Assembly (NCBI GenBank): GCA_024742305.1
Contig: JANSYQ010000004.1
Span: forward strand, 1-64,000
DNA: 64,000 bases
Direction of reading: 5' to 3'
DNA from: a bacterium
Lineage (GTDB): Bacteria; Bacteroidota; Bacteroidia; Flavobacteriales_D; Crocinitomicaceae
Part shown: one piece after another, positions 19,600 through 48,442 of the stretch
Position numbering within the stretch: the stretch's first letter is position 1
Layout: each line of letters begins with the position of its first letter
Made by a program: the position numbers and the translations under genes
Notes under the pieces: model-generated
What the model was told of the DNA's origin: nothing
Seen by the model: the letters and a program-made list of their open reading frames with translations, nothing else
Databases searched by the model: none

Positions 19600-20445
19600 A
19601 TGAAAAAAGTAATTAGTTCACTAGCCTTTGCTGCGGCACTCACATTTGGATTTACCGGAGCAGTTTACGCTCAAACGGATGACGTAGAAGCACCGGATTC
19701 AACTGAAATGGTTGATGATTCAACTGCTGAAGAAGCAGGAAATGAAGCGTCAGAAGCGGCTTCTCAAGTTACAGACGGTGATGACAAAGCAGTTGAAGAA
19801 GAGCCAGAATTGGGAATCATCGCAACAATTAAGCAAAAATTCATCCAAGGAGATCCCGTATGGATGTCTCCAGTATTGATCTGTTTGATTCTTGGATTGG
19901 CGCTTTCTATCGAGCGTATCGTTTATTTGAACCTTTCCACAATCAACACAAAACGTTTCTTGGATGAAGTAGAAACAGCTTTGAAAAACGGTGGTGTTGA
20001 CGCAGCGAAAGATGTTTGTCGTAACACACGTGGACCAATTGCTTCCATATTCTATCAAGGACTCGATCGAGCCGACGAAGGAATTGACGTCGTTGAGAAA
20101 TCCGTAGTTTCTTACGGTGGAGTTCAGATGGGACTTTTGGAAAAAGGATTGTCATGGTTATCATTGTTCATCGCTCTTGCACCAATGCTCGGGTTCTTGG
20201 GAACGGTAATCGGTATGATCTTCGCCTTCGATCAAATTGTAAAAGACGGACAGGTATCACCAATTACAGTAGCAGGTGGTATTCAGGTATCCCTTTTGAC
20301 AACAGTATTTGGTTTGATCGCAGCGATCGTATTGCAAGTATTCTACAACTACATCGTTTCTAAAGTAGACGGTTTAGTAAATGATATGGAAGACGCATCT
20401 ATCTCATTGATTGATATGATGTTGAAGCACAAGGCAAACGCCTAA
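19600..20445 (+). CDS. exbB: ExbB/TolQ/MotA family proton-channel protein
   Basis: This inner-membrane proton-channel protein energises TonB-dependent transport with ExbD. The 281-residue sequence has an N-terminal hydrophobic segment ending in VYAQ that looks like a signal peptide, an acidic periplasmic stretch (about 26-70), a first membrane helix (about 90-110), a cytoplasmic loop, and two further helices with LAPMLGFLGTVIGMIFAFDQI (about 190-215) and GGIQVSLLTTVFGLIAAI, the family hallmark. The extra acidic N-terminal segment is common in Bacteroidota copies. It heads a four-gene operon with an unknown membrane protein and two ExbD proteins. TolQ or gliding-type roles cannot be excluded from sequence alone. 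Confidence 0.93.
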   Translation: MKKVISSLAFAAALTFGFTGAVYAQTDDVEAPDSTEMVDDSTAEEAGNEASEAASQVTDGDDKAVEEEPELGIIATIKQKFIQGDPVWMSPVLICLILGLALSIERIVYLNLSTINTKRFLDEVETALKNGGVDAAKDVCRNTRGPIASIFYQGLDRADEGIDVVEKSVVSYGGVQMGLLEKGLSWLSLFIALAPMLGFLGTVIGMIFAFDQIVKDGQVSPITVAGGIQVSLLTTVFGLIAAIVLQVFYNYIVSKVDGLVNDMEDASISLIDMMLKHKANA

Positions 20446-20483: not shown

Positions 20484-20963
20484 ATGGATAACAAAAAATT
20501 TGATCTGGCAATGAATGCCATCAAGTACGTGATTGGAGCCATCGGAGCCATCGCATGTATTTGGGTGCTTTCAACCAGCCCGGGATCAGAAGCTACAGAA
20601 GTAGTGAAAGATCAATACGCGGATTCACCTCAAATGGGATTGGCCATTAACTATACAGTGATAATTATCGTTGCTGCTATTGCAGGTGTTCTGTTGTTCT
20701 TCTTGTACCAATTGATCACAAATACAAAGAAAACAGCGATGTCTATTATTGGAATTGTGGCTGCTTTCGTGCTGTATTTGGTGCTTCGATTGATCGGAAC
20801 CTCAGATACGAACCAAAGCCTCGGTTTGAAAGAAAACTACCATGTAGGTGATGCGACATTGGACGCAACCACAGCCGGACTTTGGGTGGTAATCATCGGA
20901 ATCGTTTTAGGAATTCTTTTGGCGATTCTTGGACCTTTCCTTCTTGGGAAATACAGAAAATAA
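20484..20963 (+). CDS. Small membrane protein of the ExbB-ExbD operon
   Basis: The protein has 159 residues and four predicted membrane helices (about residues 14-30, 57-78, 88-106 and 131-153). No catalytic motif is visible. A protein of this type is regularly found between ExbB and ExbD in Bacteroidota, which suggests a structural or accessory role in the complex; the function is not established. It starts 38 bases after exbB and ends six bases before the first exbD. Confidence 0.85.
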   Translation: MDNKKFDLAMNAIKYVIGAIGAIACIWVLSTSPGSEATEVVKDQYADSPQMGLAINYTVIIIVAAIAGVLLFFLYQLITNTKKTAMSIIGIVAAFVLYLVLRLIGTSDTNQSLGLKENYHVGDATLDATTAGLWVVIIGIVLGILLAILGPFLLGKYRK

Positions 20964-20969
20964 ACACTT

Positions 20970-21761
20970 ATGGCGAAGAGAGATATACCGGAAATTAACG
21001 CAGGATCGATGGCGGACATCGCCTTCCTACTTCTTATTTTCTTCCTTGTAACAACTACAATGGAGAAGGATACGGCATACATTCGCTACATCCCGCAGAA
21101 GTTGGATTCTCCGATTCCTCCTCCGGAAATTGAGCAACGTAATATCTTCGAGATTCGAGCAAATGCTGCGAACAGATTGATGATTCGTGGTAAAATTATT
21201 GAGAATCCAGATGATATTTCGGAGCGCGTACTCGAGTTTTATCGAATGAACAGAAATTTGACCGCTTCTCAAACAGCCGCGTATATTAAGAATCCAAGTT
21301 ACAAGGGGATTGATTTCCCGTTTTACAGTCGCGTAACTATGGACGAGGTGAAGCGAAAGATCAACGAGAATCTTGATGAGTTGGACAAAGCTGAGGCGGA
21401 AGAGAAGGACGATTTCATTACCTTCTACGATAAAATGGTAAAGAACTGGCAGAAGAAGGAACAAGCGCTCAAAACACTCAAAGTGAATGAATTGATCGAG
21501 ATTCACCCGCAGGCACACATTCGTGTAGTGGTGCAGCAAAAAACAGAATACCGACTTTTTGCGAAAATTCACTCTGAAATACAAGAAGCCTTGGTGGAAC
21601 TAAGAAACGAAGCTGCTGAGAAGTACTTCGGTGAAAGCTATTCCAAAATGCGCAAGCGTTTGGATCAGGACAAAGAAGACAAGAAGGGCGATGGTAAGAA
21701 GATCAAAGCTCTCGAAGTTTTGTATCCTGAAAGCATCATTGAGGTGAAACCGAAAGGTTAA
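20970..21761 (+). CDS. exbD: ExbD/TolR-type transport protein, long form
   Basis: ExbD-family protein, 263 residues against about 140 in E. coli. The N-terminus is the usual cytoplasmic lead with EINAGSMADIAFLLLIFFLVTTTM, which includes the conserved Asp (about D17) in the single membrane helix that carries protons. The rest is periplasmic and contains an insertion (about residues 80-160) with PFYSRVTMDEVKRKI and a later LRNEAAEKYFGESYSKMRKRL helix ending in LEVLYPESI. These inserted parts are echoed in the lipoprotein at 45825. It is followed 27 bases later by a second ExbD. Confidence 0.93.
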   Translation: MAKRDIPEINAGSMADIAFLLLIFFLVTTTMEKDTAYIRYIPQKLDSPIPPPEIEQRNIFEIRANAANRLMIRGKIIENPDDISERVLEFYRMNRNLTASQTAAYIKNPSYKGIDFPFYSRVTMDEVKRKINENLDELDKAEAEEKDDFITFYDKMVKNWQKKEQALKTLKVNELIEIHPQAHIRVVVQQKTEYRLFAKIHSEIQEALVELRNEAAEKYFGESYSKMRKRLDQDKEDKKGDGKKIKALEVLYPESIIEVKPKG

Positions 21762-21788: not shown

Positions 21789-22301
21789 ATGTCAAAGTTT
21801 AGAAAAGAAAATAAAAAAGGAGCACCTGGGGTTAATACCTCCTCACTCCCGGATATCGTATTTATGTTGTTGTTCTTCTTCATGGTTGCAACGACAACGA
21901 AAGAATCGGATCCAACGGTGGAGGTAACACGACCGGAAGGGGTTAGCGCAACGGATTTAACACCGTACAAGCAACGTTCCGAAATTGATTTCCTATACAT
22001 CGGTGAGCCGCGTAACTCGAAACGTGCAGCTGATTTTAAATTAGGACACGCATTGTTCCTTGATAACGTAGCGCAACCGCAACCGGGAGAGCTATACTCA
22101 ACGAACAGCATTGCTTCTTGGAAACAAGATAAGTGGAACTCGAAGCCGCCAAACATGAACGAGCCGATTTCCAACGTAATTACTTGTATCAAAGCCGATA
22201 AGGGAGTTCCAACCATTCTCATCTTTGATATTCGCGAAGCATTGCAAGAGATTGACGCCTTGAAAATAGCTTATGCTGTAGAGGATAAGTCAGCCTATTA
22301 A
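21789..22301 (+). CDS. exbD: ExbD/TolR-type transport protein, short form
   Basis: This is the second ExbD-family protein of the operon, 170 residues. The N-terminus has the typical VNTSSLPDIVFMLLFFFMVATTT membrane helix with the conserved Asp. The periplasmic part is shorter than in the preceding gene and lacks the long insertion. Two different ExbDs next to one ExbB is a common Bacteroidota arrangement and suggests a mixed ExbD dimer in the motor. A strong terminator follows 17 bases after the stop codon. Confidence 0.93.
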   Translation: MSKFRKENKKGAPGVNTSSLPDIVFMLLFFFMVATTTKESDPTVEVTRPEGVSATDLTPYKQRSEIDFLYIGEPRNSKRAADFKLGHALFLDNVAQPQPGELYSTNSIASWKQDKWNSKPPNMNEPISNVITCIKADKGVPTILIFDIREALQEIDALKIAYAVEDKSAY

Positions 22302-42656: not shown

Positions 42657-43331
42657 TTAATCCTTAATCAATCTCACAGACATTCCATACAAACTATGGT
42701 CGTACCAAGTAGTTACGGAGTGATCATAAATATCAAAATGATACAAGTAAATTTGATCAATTTCAGGATTCGTTGGGGTTGAACTCCAAAACTGAGTTAA
42801 TTTTCCTACTCCGTCCCATTCACTAGAAAGGTAACCAGCAGGAATCGCATTAAAACCACTAGAGTTGGTGCCAGGTTTTTCCCAATACTCTTTGGACTGC
42901 ATTGGTCTAAGTGCTGTTTTAGAATCTCCCAAACTTTTCCAAATAGCATTCCATTCATCATCACTCGGCACGTGATACCCTTCCGGGGCAAAACCTCTTC
43001 CGTCGGTTATAGCAAATCCGTTGTAAACTATTCCGTAGGGCGAACTCTTGTCGAAATTTACATAAGCAGCGCAACCTTTCATTTTATTATTGTACACCTC
43101 CCATTCATCTACAGAGGCTGCCACGGGAATTGGATCACCGTTTCTATACGTAAGTCCATCGTAGTTCTTGTCAGTGATTTTGAAGCCAGCAATCTCAACG
43201 GTTGAAAATGAGTTGTTGGGGGATTTCTCCTTTTGCTCATTTTTTTCTCCATTTGCATCATCCTCACCAGTACTACACGAAAACAATACGATCGAAGCGA
43301 AGCAAATCAATATAAAAGGTAGCTGTTTCAT
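42657..43331 (-). CDS. FISUMP-domain lipoprotein
   Basis: A 224-residue lipoprotein: signal ends at VLFSC (Cys about 19), followed by a short charged spacer. The rest resembles the Fibrobacter succinogenes major paralogous domain: AASVDEWEVYNNKMKGCAAYVNF, then GYHVPSDDEWNAIWKSLG, then SGFNAIPAGYLSS, WSSTPTNPE and a C-terminal GMSVRLIKD. This fold is related to formylglycine-generating-type domains but usually non-catalytic and cell-surface. Located ten bases downstream of lysS on the same strand, possibly cotranscribed by read-through. Confidence 0.88.
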   Translation of the reverse strand: MKQLPFILICFASIVLFSCSTGEDDANGEKNEQKEKSPNNSFSTVEIAGFKITDKNYDGLTYRNGDPIPVAASVDEWEVYNNKMKGCAAYVNFDKSSPYGIVYNGFAITDGRGFAPEGYHVPSDDEWNAIWKSLGDSKTALRPMQSKEYWEKPGTNSSGFNAIPAGYLSSEWDGVGKLTQFWSSTPTNPEIDQIYLYHFDIYDHSVTTWYDHSLYGMSVRLIKD

Positions 43332-45260: not shown

Positions 45261-45809
45261 ATGTGGCTAGAGTATTACCCAACTTTTAAAGCATTGCACA
45301 TCATTTTTGTGGTGAGTTGGTTTGCGGGCTTGTTTTACATCGTACGTTTGTTCATTTATCACACGGAGGCGCAAACACGAGAAGGAGAGGCTAAAAAGAT
45401 ACTCTCGGATCAGTTTGAAATTATGGAGAAACGGCTTTGGTGGATCATCACGACGCCAGCCATGATTTTGACGATTGTAACAGCTACGTTGATGCTCATT
45501 AGTGTTCCAGCATGGCTTGAGCAAGGTTGGATGCACATCAAACTTTCCTTCGTTTTCATTTTACTGATCTATCATTTCGTTTGTCAGAAAATCATGATGG
45601 ATATGAAAAAAGGTCAATTCAAATGGAAATCGAACGGATTACGTATTTGGAATGAAGTAGCGACACTCGTTTTGGTAGCCATTGCATTCCTTGTTACCAT
45701 GCGCGGCTCATTGAATTGGATCAAAGGAACCGTTGGTTTTTTTGCCGTTGCTATTGGATTGATGATCGCGATTAAAATGTACAAAAGATCGCGCTCGAAA
45801 TCTCAGTAG
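45261..45809 (+). CDS. hemJ: Protoporphyrinogen IX oxidase, HemJ type
   Basis: HemJ oxidises protoporphyrinogen IX to protoporphyrin IX in the inner membrane, the penultimate step of heme synthesis. The 182-residue protein has about four membrane helices. The N-terminal FKALHIIFVVSWFAGLFYIVRLFIYH has the conserved His (about H13) and the ALHIIxVVSWFAGLFY signature, and a Lys-rich WMHIKLSFVFILLIYHF carries the second conserved region. It is transcribed divergently from lysS. Confidence 0.92.
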   Translation: MWLEYYPTFKALHIIFVVSWFAGLFYIVRLFIYHTEAQTREGEAKKILSDQFEIMEKRLWWIITTPAMILTIVTATLMLISVPAWLEQGWMHIKLSFVFILLIYHFVCQKIMMDMKKGQFKWKSNGLRIWNEVATLVLVAIAFLVTMRGSLNWIKGTVGFFAVAIGLMIAIKMYKRSRSKSQ

Positions 45810-45824
45810 CCGATTCAGTTCGCC

Positions 45825-46691
45825 TTATTTTTCAAGGATTTCTTCCGTAACAATTTCCTCTCTCGGAGGAGCAGGCATTTTGGGTGGTTCCGGAAGTTTT
45901 ACTTCTTCTAGTTCAGATGCTTTTAACCCTAAAAAATAAGCAGGATACATCTCTTGGAGAAAGAGCAGTTGTTTCGCTGATTCGGAATTTGTTGCCGCCT
46001 TACTTCGGATCAAATCATAACCTTTACCAAATTTTTCTTGTGCTAGTTCGTCGCGCATTTTAAATAGGTTTTTAGCCAAATGATCTTCTAACTCTGTAAC
46101 TTTTTCTTTTGTGACTTCATCTGAATAAACATAACGAATCAAGGAAAGTGGGTTAAGGAATGGGAGGCTATTGTCGTCCACGGCATCAAAAGCCTTGATA
46201 CTTCGCGCATGTCGCTGTAAGTAAATACCTGCCTTCATTTCCTTTTCAGCCATTTTTTTCAGCTGTTCAATGTAGCTAGCATATGAATCACGCGTAAATC
46301 GCTGAAAGTATGGGTAGTTTCCACCAGAATGATTGTCATTTTTCTTCCTCCAAGAAGTTTCTGTATTGGTGAGTTCTCTGTTCGCATTGAAGAAGAGATT
46401 CATTTCATCTTTTAATGTTTTCCAGTCAGCTTTTTCTCCTTCGATCATCAAGGAACCATCTGACTTCATCTCAATTTCCAGTATCATCCGATCGTACAAA
46501 AGGATATCCTTGTCGGAACGCAACGCCATGGGATAGTCATTTTTGGATTCAGTGATTATGTGTCGAAAGTCCTCATGAACTGGAACAATTTTGTCCTTAC
46601 CTTTTGGTGGAATGGACTCATTTTCAGATTTACTAACGCAAGAAGCTAGAGCGATCACAAATAGAGCTAGGAAAGAAAAATAAAGCTTCAT
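45825..46691 (-). CDS. Lipoprotein resembling a detached ExbD periplasmic domain
   Basis: The protein is 288 residues with a lipoprotein signal (MKLYFSFLALFVIALASC, Cys 18). The mature part matches the long ExbD at 20970 in an ordered series of blocks: LMIEGEKADWKTLKDEMNLFF...NRELT versus LMIRGKI...EFYRMNRNLT; PYFQRFTRDSYASYIEQL versus PFYSRVTMDEVKRKINEN; MRDELAQEKFGKGYDLIRS versus LRNEAAEKYFGESYSKMRK; and QEMYPAYF versus EVLYPESI. The ExbD membrane helix and its proton-carrying Asp are absent. A Pro-rich C-terminal tail (LPEPPKMPAPPREE) may span or contact the envelope. No enzyme motif is seen. The similarity is by eye; an accessory role with ExbB/ExbD or TonB is inference. Confidence 0.85.
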   Translation of the reverse strand: MKLYFSFLALFVIALASCVSKSENESIPPKGKDKIVPVHEDFRHIITESKNDYPMALRSDKDILLYDRMILEIEMKSDGSLMIEGEKADWKTLKDEMNLFFNANRELTNTETSWRKKNDNHSGGNYPYFQRFTRDSYASYIEQLKKMAEKEMKAGIYLQRHARSIKAFDAVDDNSLPFLNPLSLIRYVYSDEVTKEKVTELEDHLAKNLFKMRDELAQEKFGKGYDLIRSKAATNSESAKQLLFLQEMYPAYFLGLKASELEEVKLPEPPKMPAPPREEIVTEEILEK

Positions 46692-46696
46692 AACAC

Positions 46697-48442
46697 TTAT
46701 GATTTATACGTGTCTATAAAGATGCGAATGTTTCTCAATTCGAAGGTTTCTTTTCCTTGATTCCAGATGTAAATTTTCACTTTTTCGAAATCGTTGAAGT
46801 GATCAGGAATCTGTCCGCTGAAAGAAATGGGCGCCCACTCGTTAACCCCTTCCAAACGATCGTTGAAGAGCGGTATAGCGTGGTAATGAGTAAAATCGGA
46901 ATCCTTGTCCGTTGCATGAATCACAAGGGAAACATTCTGTAAGGGTTTCTTCGATTTTTTGTCCATCCAAACTCGGAAATAGAGCCGTTCATTCGTTCTG
47001 TTTCTTGGAGTTTCGTAATTCACTTCGTGAATGAACTCATCAGTTTTATCAACGCGAATAGTTTTCGTCTCCCAAGACAAAATTTCCTCGTGTACTTTTT
47101 CTCCAAATGGAACTACGGAATGCGGATAGCGCCATCGGTCGTGGTTTTCCTCTTGCCAAAAAGCAAGACTGGCAAAGTAGCTACTGGCCGTAAATCGTTG
47201 ATCGATCATCGCTCCTGAACTGTAGTTCTGATGTCTGATCCACCCCATCAAAAAGAAAATGCAGAGTGAATACCATAAAAATCTTGTTCTAAATTGTCCC
47301 ACGTAAAGGAGTGGAATCAACAACATAAAAGTATGTTCCGTGAAAGGTCTATTGCCAAAACTGGTTTCATAATCCCAACACCACCAAGAGGAAATAACCC
47401 ATGTATTTACTAGAAAATAGACCCACCAACTAAAAAAGAGAAACGTGTTTTTTCGCAGCAGCCAAAAGGAAGCAACTGCAGATACCAGCATTATCGGGGT
47501 ATGCAAGAAAAGTCCGTTTCGAAAGCTGAATAAATTTTCCAAGAACGCGGGTTGCAAGAAGTTGAATCCTTCTCCCGAGTACGACCAGTTGATCCAGTGT
47601 CCTGACTGCCATTTCCATAGAAAGAACTGCAAGGAAAAAACAACCAAAAAACCACCTATTGCGATTAGAAATAGACGCGCTTTTCTTTCAAATAAACGAG
47701 AAACTGTGTCCTTGAATTCTGCATAACCCTTGAACAGCAAAGGAACAGCCAAAAGAATTAAAATATTCGTCGGACGCACTAATGCAATCAGACCCAAGGT
47801 TAATCCTGCAATCAACACATACTTCCAGTGAAGCCAATCGCGATATTTGAGAATTGCGTACGCAAACAAAGAGAAAAGGAAAAAACTGTAATGGTGTGAT
47901 AAGCCGAGTGAAAACGTATTATATACCAATAACGTAGAGCATAGGTAAATAGCCATCACCAGCCATTGAGACTGATCCTTTAGCCATGGAAAACGCAATT
48001 GAATGCAGCGGTGAAAAAGCCAAACACCCAGCAAGGTGTAAAACAAACTTCCTAGTAAAAATGCCAATTCAAAAGGCTCGGAATAACCATCAACCGGAGC
48101 ACCAGAGATAACCGCCGCTATGCATCCTGCTCCAAAAAAAGGCGATTGCAAAACAGCAATTCCCGGGAAGTACTTGTTGAATACGCGCCCCTCTCTGTTT
48201 TGGTACAAATAATACTGATTGAAATTGGGCTGTGCGTTGCGTGTTTCCGCCTCCAACGATGCTTCAAAAGTAGGATCGTTGTACATAAATAACGCTGGCA
48301 AATACGCATAATACCCGCGACCATCAGAGCGAATGACATTTTTGAACTCTCCATCCAATAAATTGTTGTCCACCGTGACAAACGCCAAGAACAGCGAAAA
48401 CCAAAACAAAGGGTTTTTCAATATGGGCAGAAAGCGTTTCAT
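46697..48442 (-). CDS. Large multi-pass membrane protein, glycosyltransferase-like (GT-C)
   Basis: The 581-residue protein has about ten to eleven predicted membrane helices and a C-terminal periplasmic beta-rich domain of roughly 140 residues. The N-terminal luminal segment has an acidic pair in LLDGEFKNVIRSDGRGYYAYLPALF, where GT-C enzymes keep their catalytic Asp; D38 is a candidate. Such enzymes use polyprenyl-phosphate sugars at the membrane. The target is unknown, and the family call is moderate. It ends six bases upstream of the ExbD-like lipoprotein on the same strand, so the two may be cotranscribed. Confidence 0.78.
   Translation of the reverse strand: MKRFLPILKNPLFWFSLFLAFVTVDNNLLDGEFKNVIRSDGRGYYAYLPALFMYNDPTFEASLEAETRNAQPNFNQYYLYQNREGRVFNKYFPGIAVLQSPFFGAGCIAAVISGAPVDGYSEPFELAFLLGSLFYTLLGVWLFHRCIQLRFPWLKDQSQWLVMAIYLCSTLLVYNTFSLGLSHHYSFFLFSLFAYAILKYRDWLHWKYVLIAGLTLGLIALVRPTNILILLAVPLLFKGYAEFKDTVSRLFERKARLFLIAIGGFLVVFSLQFFLWKWQSGHWINWSYSGEGFNFLQPAFLENLFSFRNGLFLHTPIMLVSAVASFWLLRKNTFLFFSWWVYFLVNTWVISSWWCWDYETSFGNRPFTEHTFMLLIPLLYVGQFRTRFLWYSLCIFFLMGWIRHQNYSSGAMIDQRFTASSYFASLAFWQEENHDRWRYPHSVVPFGEKVHEEILSWETKTIRVDKTDEFIHEVNYETPRNRTNERLYFRVWMDKKSKKPLQNVSLVIHATDKDSDFTHYHAIPLFNDRLEGVNEWAPISFSGQIPDHFNDFEKVKIYIWNQGKETFELRNIRIFIDTYKS

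Follow-up and report, generated by a model that had tools for sequence, protein, structure and literature searches.

A putative lipoprotein encoded in a Crocinitomicaceae genome is, by its sequence, a derivative of ExbD and not an ExbD. ExbD is a membrane-embedded stator, and its periplasmic dimer switch gates outer membrane uptake. The lipoprotein, here termed type A, carries an ExbD-like periplasmic domain behind a lipobox, and with moderate confidence we read it as a lipid-anchored partner or competitor of the ExbD periplasmic dimer. It was found in the window, that is, the whole stretch of 64,000 nucleotides analysed, from a genome designated G000 (other G numbers denote the compared genomes). 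The gene and its parts are as follows.

45825..46691, minus strand: type A ExbD-domain lipoprotein, 288 aa (open reading frame with ATG start; ExbD homology; orthologues)
46638..46691, minus strand: signal peptide and lipobox (residues 1-18, LASC, Cys18), from the translation by eye; lipidation putative
45906..46502, minus strand: ExbD-like periplasmic domain, residues 64-262 (hhalign, Foldseek, VIA-align)
46317..46382, minus strand: 22-residue loop, residues 104-125, equal in length to that of the ExbD of the same genome
46182..46292, minus strand: inserted helical hairpin, helices 134-148 and 152-170 in the predicted model
45828..45905, minus strand: proline- and acid-rich C-terminal tail, residues 263-288; ExbD1 has no such tail

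The type A gene does not adjoin exbB. The exb operon lies ~24 kb away and consists of ExbB, a 159-aa protein, ExbD1 and ExbD2, an arrangement kept in G000, G007 and G013.

19600..20445, plus strand: ExbB (PF01618, 91.6 bits)
20484..20963, plus strand: 159-aa membrane protein between exbB and exbD1
20970..21761, plus strand: long ExbD (ExbD1), 263 aa (PF02472, 46.5 bits)
21000..21062, plus strand: ExbD1 membrane helix with Asp16 (translation; helix 11-29 in the model)
21075..21095, plus strand: ExbD1 juxtamembrane segment AYIRYIP, probably at the position of the enterobacterial NIBS strand
21789..22301, plus strand: second ExbD (ExbD2), 170 aa (PF02472, 33.0 bits, residues 8-59 only)

The only Pfam match of the 159-aa membrane protein was DUF4064, below threshold.

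The first-pass annotation had suggested that an ExbD periplasmic domain was here recast as a lipoprotein, and this was borne out by the sequence, the profile comparison and the predicted fold. The blocks that it had noted as shared with the long ExbD at 20970 occur in the same order in both proteins: SLMIEGEKADWKTLKDEMNLFFNANRELT in the lipoprotein and RLMIRGKIIENPDDISERVLEFYRMNRNLT in ExbD, PYFQRFT and PFYSRVT, MRDELAQEKFGKGY and LRNEAAEKYFGESY, and EMYP and VLYP. The lipoprotein has no counterpart of the ExbD segment SMADIAFLLLIFFLV with Asp16; in place of the helix it begins MKLYFSFLALFVIALASC, a signal peptide and lipobox by eye. A plain ExbD paralogue was thus ruled out, the helix and Asp being missing. 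The lipobox was recognized by eye in all three type A proteins, as LASC here and as LTSC and LSSC in the two orthologues.

BLASTP aligned the type A lipoprotein to ExbD1 at 50.8 bits (E 5e-12, 26% identity, 175 aa). A chance match was ruled out by randomising residues 21-288 of the lipoprotein: the best scores were 26.2 bits among 3000 full shuffles and 29.3 bits among 3000 shuffles within 10-residue blocks. Used as a query against its own genome, the lipoprotein matched ExbD1 (E 5e-10) and the product of a gene on a different contig (E 8e-6). The profile-profile comparison proposed earlier was run with three type A proteins against seven ExbD1 proteins, and hhalign gave 99.0% and E 4.3e-18 over 195 columns, spanning ExbD columns 53-263. 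Pfam and NCBIfam assigned no family above cut-off to the type A lipoprotein; in Pfam no family was matched at E up to 1, an OmpA-like peptidoglycan-binding domain included, and the gathering score of PF02472 was not reached. Sequence searches against solved structures yielded no useful match. The ExbD signature TxYxLFAKIxSE is absent from type A, and its hairpin segment has 52 residues, nine fewer than the 61 in ExbD1.

Foldseek and VIA-align searches with the type A model returned ExbD and TolR as best matches, and solved ExbD domains occupied Foldseek ranks 1 to 5. With the ExbD1 model, ExbD chains appeared at ranks 1-4 and 11; compared with the lipoprotein, it matched four of the same five ExbD chains with weaker scores and 8PEK with a better one. 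The type A and ExbD1 models share their main elements in the same order rather than showing different folds, and they are not fully independent, because both were built on the same four sequences. From residue 266 on, pLDDT in the type A model was <50. These predicted structures support an ExbD periplasmic fold in the lipoprotein. Neither outcome that the first-pass annotation had named as refuting its reading, a lack of profile score or a difference in fold, came about.

A profile built from the domains of ExbD1 and of the lipoproteins matched 111 of 240 Crocinitomicaceae genomes (a family that includes Fluviicola in the NCBI taxonomy). Most of the extra matches other than the main ExbDs were read, the exceptions being G079, G080, G098, G099:C84 and G145. 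Exported ExbD-domain proteins in this family have at least three architectures, types A, B and C, and the genome of the window encodes two further such proteins besides type A. Type A was found in three of the 240 genomes (G000, G007 and G013); its reading frame is open in all three, with ~50% identity and a conserved lipobox and locus.

Type B proteins have a lipobox, a leader of ~70-80 residues, a domain with the hairpin, and often a proline-rich tail, which in six of the eight full-length proteins is similar to the type A tail. They were found in nine genomes and are full length in eight (G000, G005, G006, G011, G024, G028, G152 and G175). Contig ends cut a second copy in G005 and the one in G019; a broken remnant occurs in G013 (G013:C2) and a C-terminal fragment in G011. 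The type B profile matched ExbD1 at 99.9% (hhalign, E 2e-36), and the core signature TxYxLFAKI is lost in types A and B alike. The type B lipoprotein of the window's own genome (G000:C48:46527-47189; L003 1492-2382, minus strand) is 38% identical to ExbD1 over 206 columns.

In type C proteins an extra N-terminal domain of ~150 residues precedes the ExbD part. Seven genomes carry an intact type C gene (G000, G010, G028, G037, G074, G078 and G143), and that of G013 (G013:C10) is interrupted by an in-frame stop. In the G010 and G037 proteins no lipobox was recognized by eye, and both resemble plain secreted proteins. Six type C proteins matched ExbD1 at 99.1% (hhalign, E 5e-19), starting at the juxtamembrane segment; the ExbD part of the G037, G074 and G143 proteins rests on this joint alignment, not on individual tests. 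The type C lipoprotein of G000 (G000:C7; L066 4127-5038, plus strand) combines the extra N-terminal domain with the juxtamembrane segment of ExbD, LEKDTSYIRSIPKK. The type B and type C genes that were read lie elsewhere than the type A locus.

A single-sequence search found the type C N-terminal domain in 13 of the 240 family genomes, in some cases without an ExbD domain. Among the latter whose ends were read, three proteins, from G005, G011 and G024, end in YIR.[IM]PKK, the ExbD juxtamembrane sequence; these endings count as one event because the proteins are orthologues. They are short lipoproteins (L138, L139 and L141; G011:C151, G024:C82 and G005:C9) that stop a few residues past this segment. 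A weaker R.IP match stands at the end of the proteins of G040, G041, G042 and G096, and seven other N-domain proteins (G028:C167, two in G043, and one each in G079, G135, G292 and G300) had no juxtamembrane match at the end. The frame of the G029 protein stops before the position of the segment. Minimal lipoproteins of ~165-173 aa (L237 and L238 in G140, L239 in G099) align with the type C profile in its ExbD-like part; against the ExbD1 profile their match was weak (hhalign, 31%, E 5e-4), and we regard them tentatively as relatives of the ExbD domain.

Several other matches were set aside. Those in G008, G074, G097 and G153 are ordinary second or third ExbDs, the one in G146 is a repeat protein without the look of an ExbD, and a weak match of the type A search (G020:C59) is a large, unrelated-looking protein. 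The extra matches in G167 and G174 are partial. Outside the family, one type C-like protein was found in another family of the order (G257), and the 11 type B profile matches that were read (10 genomes, a minority of the matches) proved to be ordinary ExbDs.

The type A gene lies between two membrane protein genes.

46697..48442, minus strand: polytopic membrane protein, 581 aa, 5 bases upstream of the lipoprotein gene
45261..45809, plus strand: UPF0093 membrane protein, convergent neighbour of the lipoprotein gene

This gene order is kept in G007 and G013, with a gap between the 581-aa and lipoprotein genes of 5 bases in G007 and 2 bases in G013, whose 581-aa gene is broken by the end of a contig. 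The two genes are probably transcribed together. No Pfam family above cut-off was found for the 581-aa protein, which has five matches in G000. Among 12 loci of its family read in the genus, the lipoprotein gene is present in two (G000 and G007); in four (G002, G012, G019 and G028) it is absent and the 581-aa and UPF0093 genes share 4 bases, and the remaining six have other neighbours. Since the same neighbours occur without a lipoprotein gene between them, type A appears to have been gained in a single lineage, most likely in an ancestor of the three related Fluviicola-like genomes. The most likely route would be the replacement of the start and the proton-carrying helix in a copy of the local exbD1 by a lipoprotein signal peptide.

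Phylogenetic trees suggest that such derivation occurred more than once. In a tree of 66 domains, the type C protein of G078 falls within the ExbDs from its own genus (support 100/80), the type B protein of G000 (B_G000) groups with the ExbDs of G000 and G013 (96/81), and a single clade (100/96) unites seven other type B proteins. The starred branches of this tree force at least three changes between ExbD and other labels. In freely searched trees, type A is placed by itself at the end of a very long branch. In topology tests on a reduced set of 48 rows, a tree joining type A, B_G000 and the ExbDs of G000, G007 and G013 stood at +5.1 log-likelihood units relative to the free search (p-AU 0.779); a clade of types A and B was not rejected (p 0.225), nor was one of type A with all long-loop ExbDs and three type B proteins (p 0.235). 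Type B as one clade was likewise not rejected on the non-hairpin columns (p 0.131; 0.311 in a second test). The ExbD of its own genome ranked 3, 8 and 2 of 52 for the three type A proteins, which is weak tracking. These placements of types A and B are uncertain given the long branches. The leader does not support a single origin of type B, because B_G000 scored 9.0 bits against the leader profile of the other type B proteins, below the best of 2000 shuffles (9.2).

Type B proteins resemble the ExbD of their own genome, most strongly in the loop and hairpin. Within ExbD, conservation is lowest in these two parts, whose mean identities in eight genomes are 0.38 and 0.40, compared to 0.44 to 0.67 elsewhere. 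Type B hairpins have an identity of 0.34 to the own-genome ExbD versus 0.24 to others. When the assignment of the eight type B proteins to genomes was permuted, the own-genome similarity of loop and hairpin gave p 5/40320 and the rest of the domain, tracking less strongly, 153/40320; the segments were divided after the alignment had been seen, and the genomes are related. The hairpin p did not exceed 9/5040 when any one genome was dropped. When each cluster was represented by a single genome, in two choices, the true pairing was the best of 120 (2 and 5 of 120 for the rest of the domain). The loop class (~22 or 10 residues) also agreed with the own-genome ExbD in seven of the eight type B proteins, B_G011 being the one that differs, as well as in all three type A and both long type C proteins.

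Hairpin and remaining columns were compared in topology tests on 40 of 67 rows, with B_G011 left out and 63 hairpin columns kept. The hairpin alone rejected a type B clade (seven type B rows, AU p 0.024), while the non-hairpin columns, which did not reject such a clade (p 0.311), rejected the grouping of B_G028 with ExbD_G028 (p 5e-5) and that of B_G006 with ExbD_G006 and ExbD_G019 (p 0.012). Recent gene conversion was rejected as the cause of the hairpin similarity: hairpin third codon positions agreed at 0.28-0.49 in five pairs of lipoprotein and own ExbD, and at 0.30 and 0.38 in two ExbD-ExbD pairs. Agreement was clearly raised in one place only: at the C-terminus of the type C protein of G078 (L075 4263-5405, plus strand), third positions agreed at 0.67 and 17 of 23 shared residues had the same codon as in its own ExbD; this segment is possibly a patch of gene conversion. 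Lineage signal is stronger in variable columns, so that some of the pattern could stem from gene exchange or from repeated derivation, with no contact involved. The comparisons are strong evidence for a linkage of some kind between type B and ExbD, and stop short of proving contact.

We propose that the type A product would be a lipid-anchored periplasmic protein acting on the Ton motor via the ExbD periplasmic domain. It probably resides in the outer membrane, the usual default for lipoproteins in Bacteroidota. Pairing of the lipoprotein with ExbD, with the helical hairpin as the contact, ranks as most likely; next comes occupation of a ligand that ExbD also binds, such as the TonB D-box strand (D-box: PMC12215075) or peptidoglycan. 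Being a lipoprotein without a proton path, it would act by tethering or buffering the dimer switch of ExbD or by restraining it. Binding to ExbB, also raised in the first-pass annotation, is unlikely, since ExbD enters the ExbB pore with the very helix that is missing here. Indirect support for a link with ExbD or an ExbD partner comes from the co-variation of type B hairpins with ExbD and from three short type C relatives that end in the juxtamembrane segment. Type A itself may have drifted to another job, as it has lost the ExbD signature and nine hairpin residues.

According to one structural study, the periplasmic dimer of ExbD is closed by an intermolecular strand (NIBS) made up of residues 44-49, which follow the helix; a TonB segment takes the place of NIBS, and peptidoglycan loosens the ExbD dimer (PMC10771500). 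In TolR, a strand-swapped dimer hides peptidoglycan binding (PMC4646322). The YIRxIPKK segment would, from its position, correspond to the NIBS strand. More speculatively, Crocinitomicaceae may have a 'shadow ExbD' family, lipid-anchored and repeatedly renewed from the local exbD, that controls the Ton motor from the periplasm; its long forms would pair via the hairpin, and its short type C forms would offer YIRxIPKK, competing with the ExbD strand and TonB.

A less probable reading, which nevertheless deserves weight, is that the lipoprotein binds the TonB strand, peptidoglycan or another periplasmic factor and not ExbD, serving as a decoy or as a Pal-like tether between outer membrane and cell wall. 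Both domains would therefore follow the same changing partner, and a common partner explains the co-variation with ExbD as well as direct contact does. Binding of peptidoglycan by TolR and ExbD domains in some states (PMC4646322, PMC10771500) fits this reading. However, co-variation is highest in the inserted hairpin and not in the strand region at which TonB binds in E. coli ExbD, and the core signature is lost in types A and B.

Pairing with ExbD also has to be weighed against an improbable reading in which a duplicated ExbD domain was taken into an unrelated envelope task, for example with the 581-aa protein, and has no role in the Ton system. The operon-like arrangement with the 581-aa gene, the fast divergence and the loss of core signatures are in keeping with it. 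Yet homologues of the 581-aa protein, paralogues included, occur in 30 of 34 genus genomes versus three of 34 for type A, the type B and C genes read sit away from the 581-aa locus, and type B hairpins co-vary with ExbD. That the lipoproteins are decaying, functionless ExbD copies is very improbable: the patchy distribution and the broken copies (G013:C2, the G011 fragment and G013:C10) would agree with this, but the conservation of type A in its three genomes and the open frames of eight full-length, divergent type B proteins argue against it.

Compared with known systems, type A resembles ExbD and TolR (PF02472) in the order of strands and helices, in homology over ~195 columns, and in the long loop and hairpin of its lineage's ExbD1. 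It differs in lacking the membrane helix and the proton-carrying Asp, in having a lipobox instead, an extra N-terminal linker and a proline-rich tail, in lying outside the exbB operon, and in falling below Pfam recognition. The likeness to Pal, the outer membrane lipoprotein of the Tol-Pal system, is one of analogy: type A, too, would be anchored by lipid in the periplasm and could act on a proton-driven motor of the envelope. Unlike Pal, it has no OmpA family match in Pfam, and its domain derives from a stator subunit of the motor itself. ExbD/TolR parts have also been shuffled in vWA proteins with a TolR/ExbD-like pore helix (PMC12204202); those keep the pore helix with another periplasmic domain, whereas type A keeps the periplasmic domain and loses the pore helix.

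No earlier description of an ExbD-domain lipoprotein was found in full-text searches of a literature collection without most subscription papers. We know of no such Ton-motor regulator or tether from any model system. If the proposed reading is true, a family of lipid-anchored ExbD dimer domains, made more than once and partly tracking the local ExbD, would point to such a regulator or tether. The other half-copies in some relatives hint at an unknown layer of control over the proton-driven motor that powers uptake across the outer membrane. Since the family points to particular surfaces, namely the co-varying hairpin and the copied juxtamembrane segment, it would offer a direct handle on what the ExbD periplasmic domain touches. 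Elsewhere in the window, at 42657-43331 on the minus strand, another lipoprotein-like product carries the Fibrobacter succinogenes major domain (PF09603), and its gene adjoins a lysyl-tRNA synthetase-like gene.
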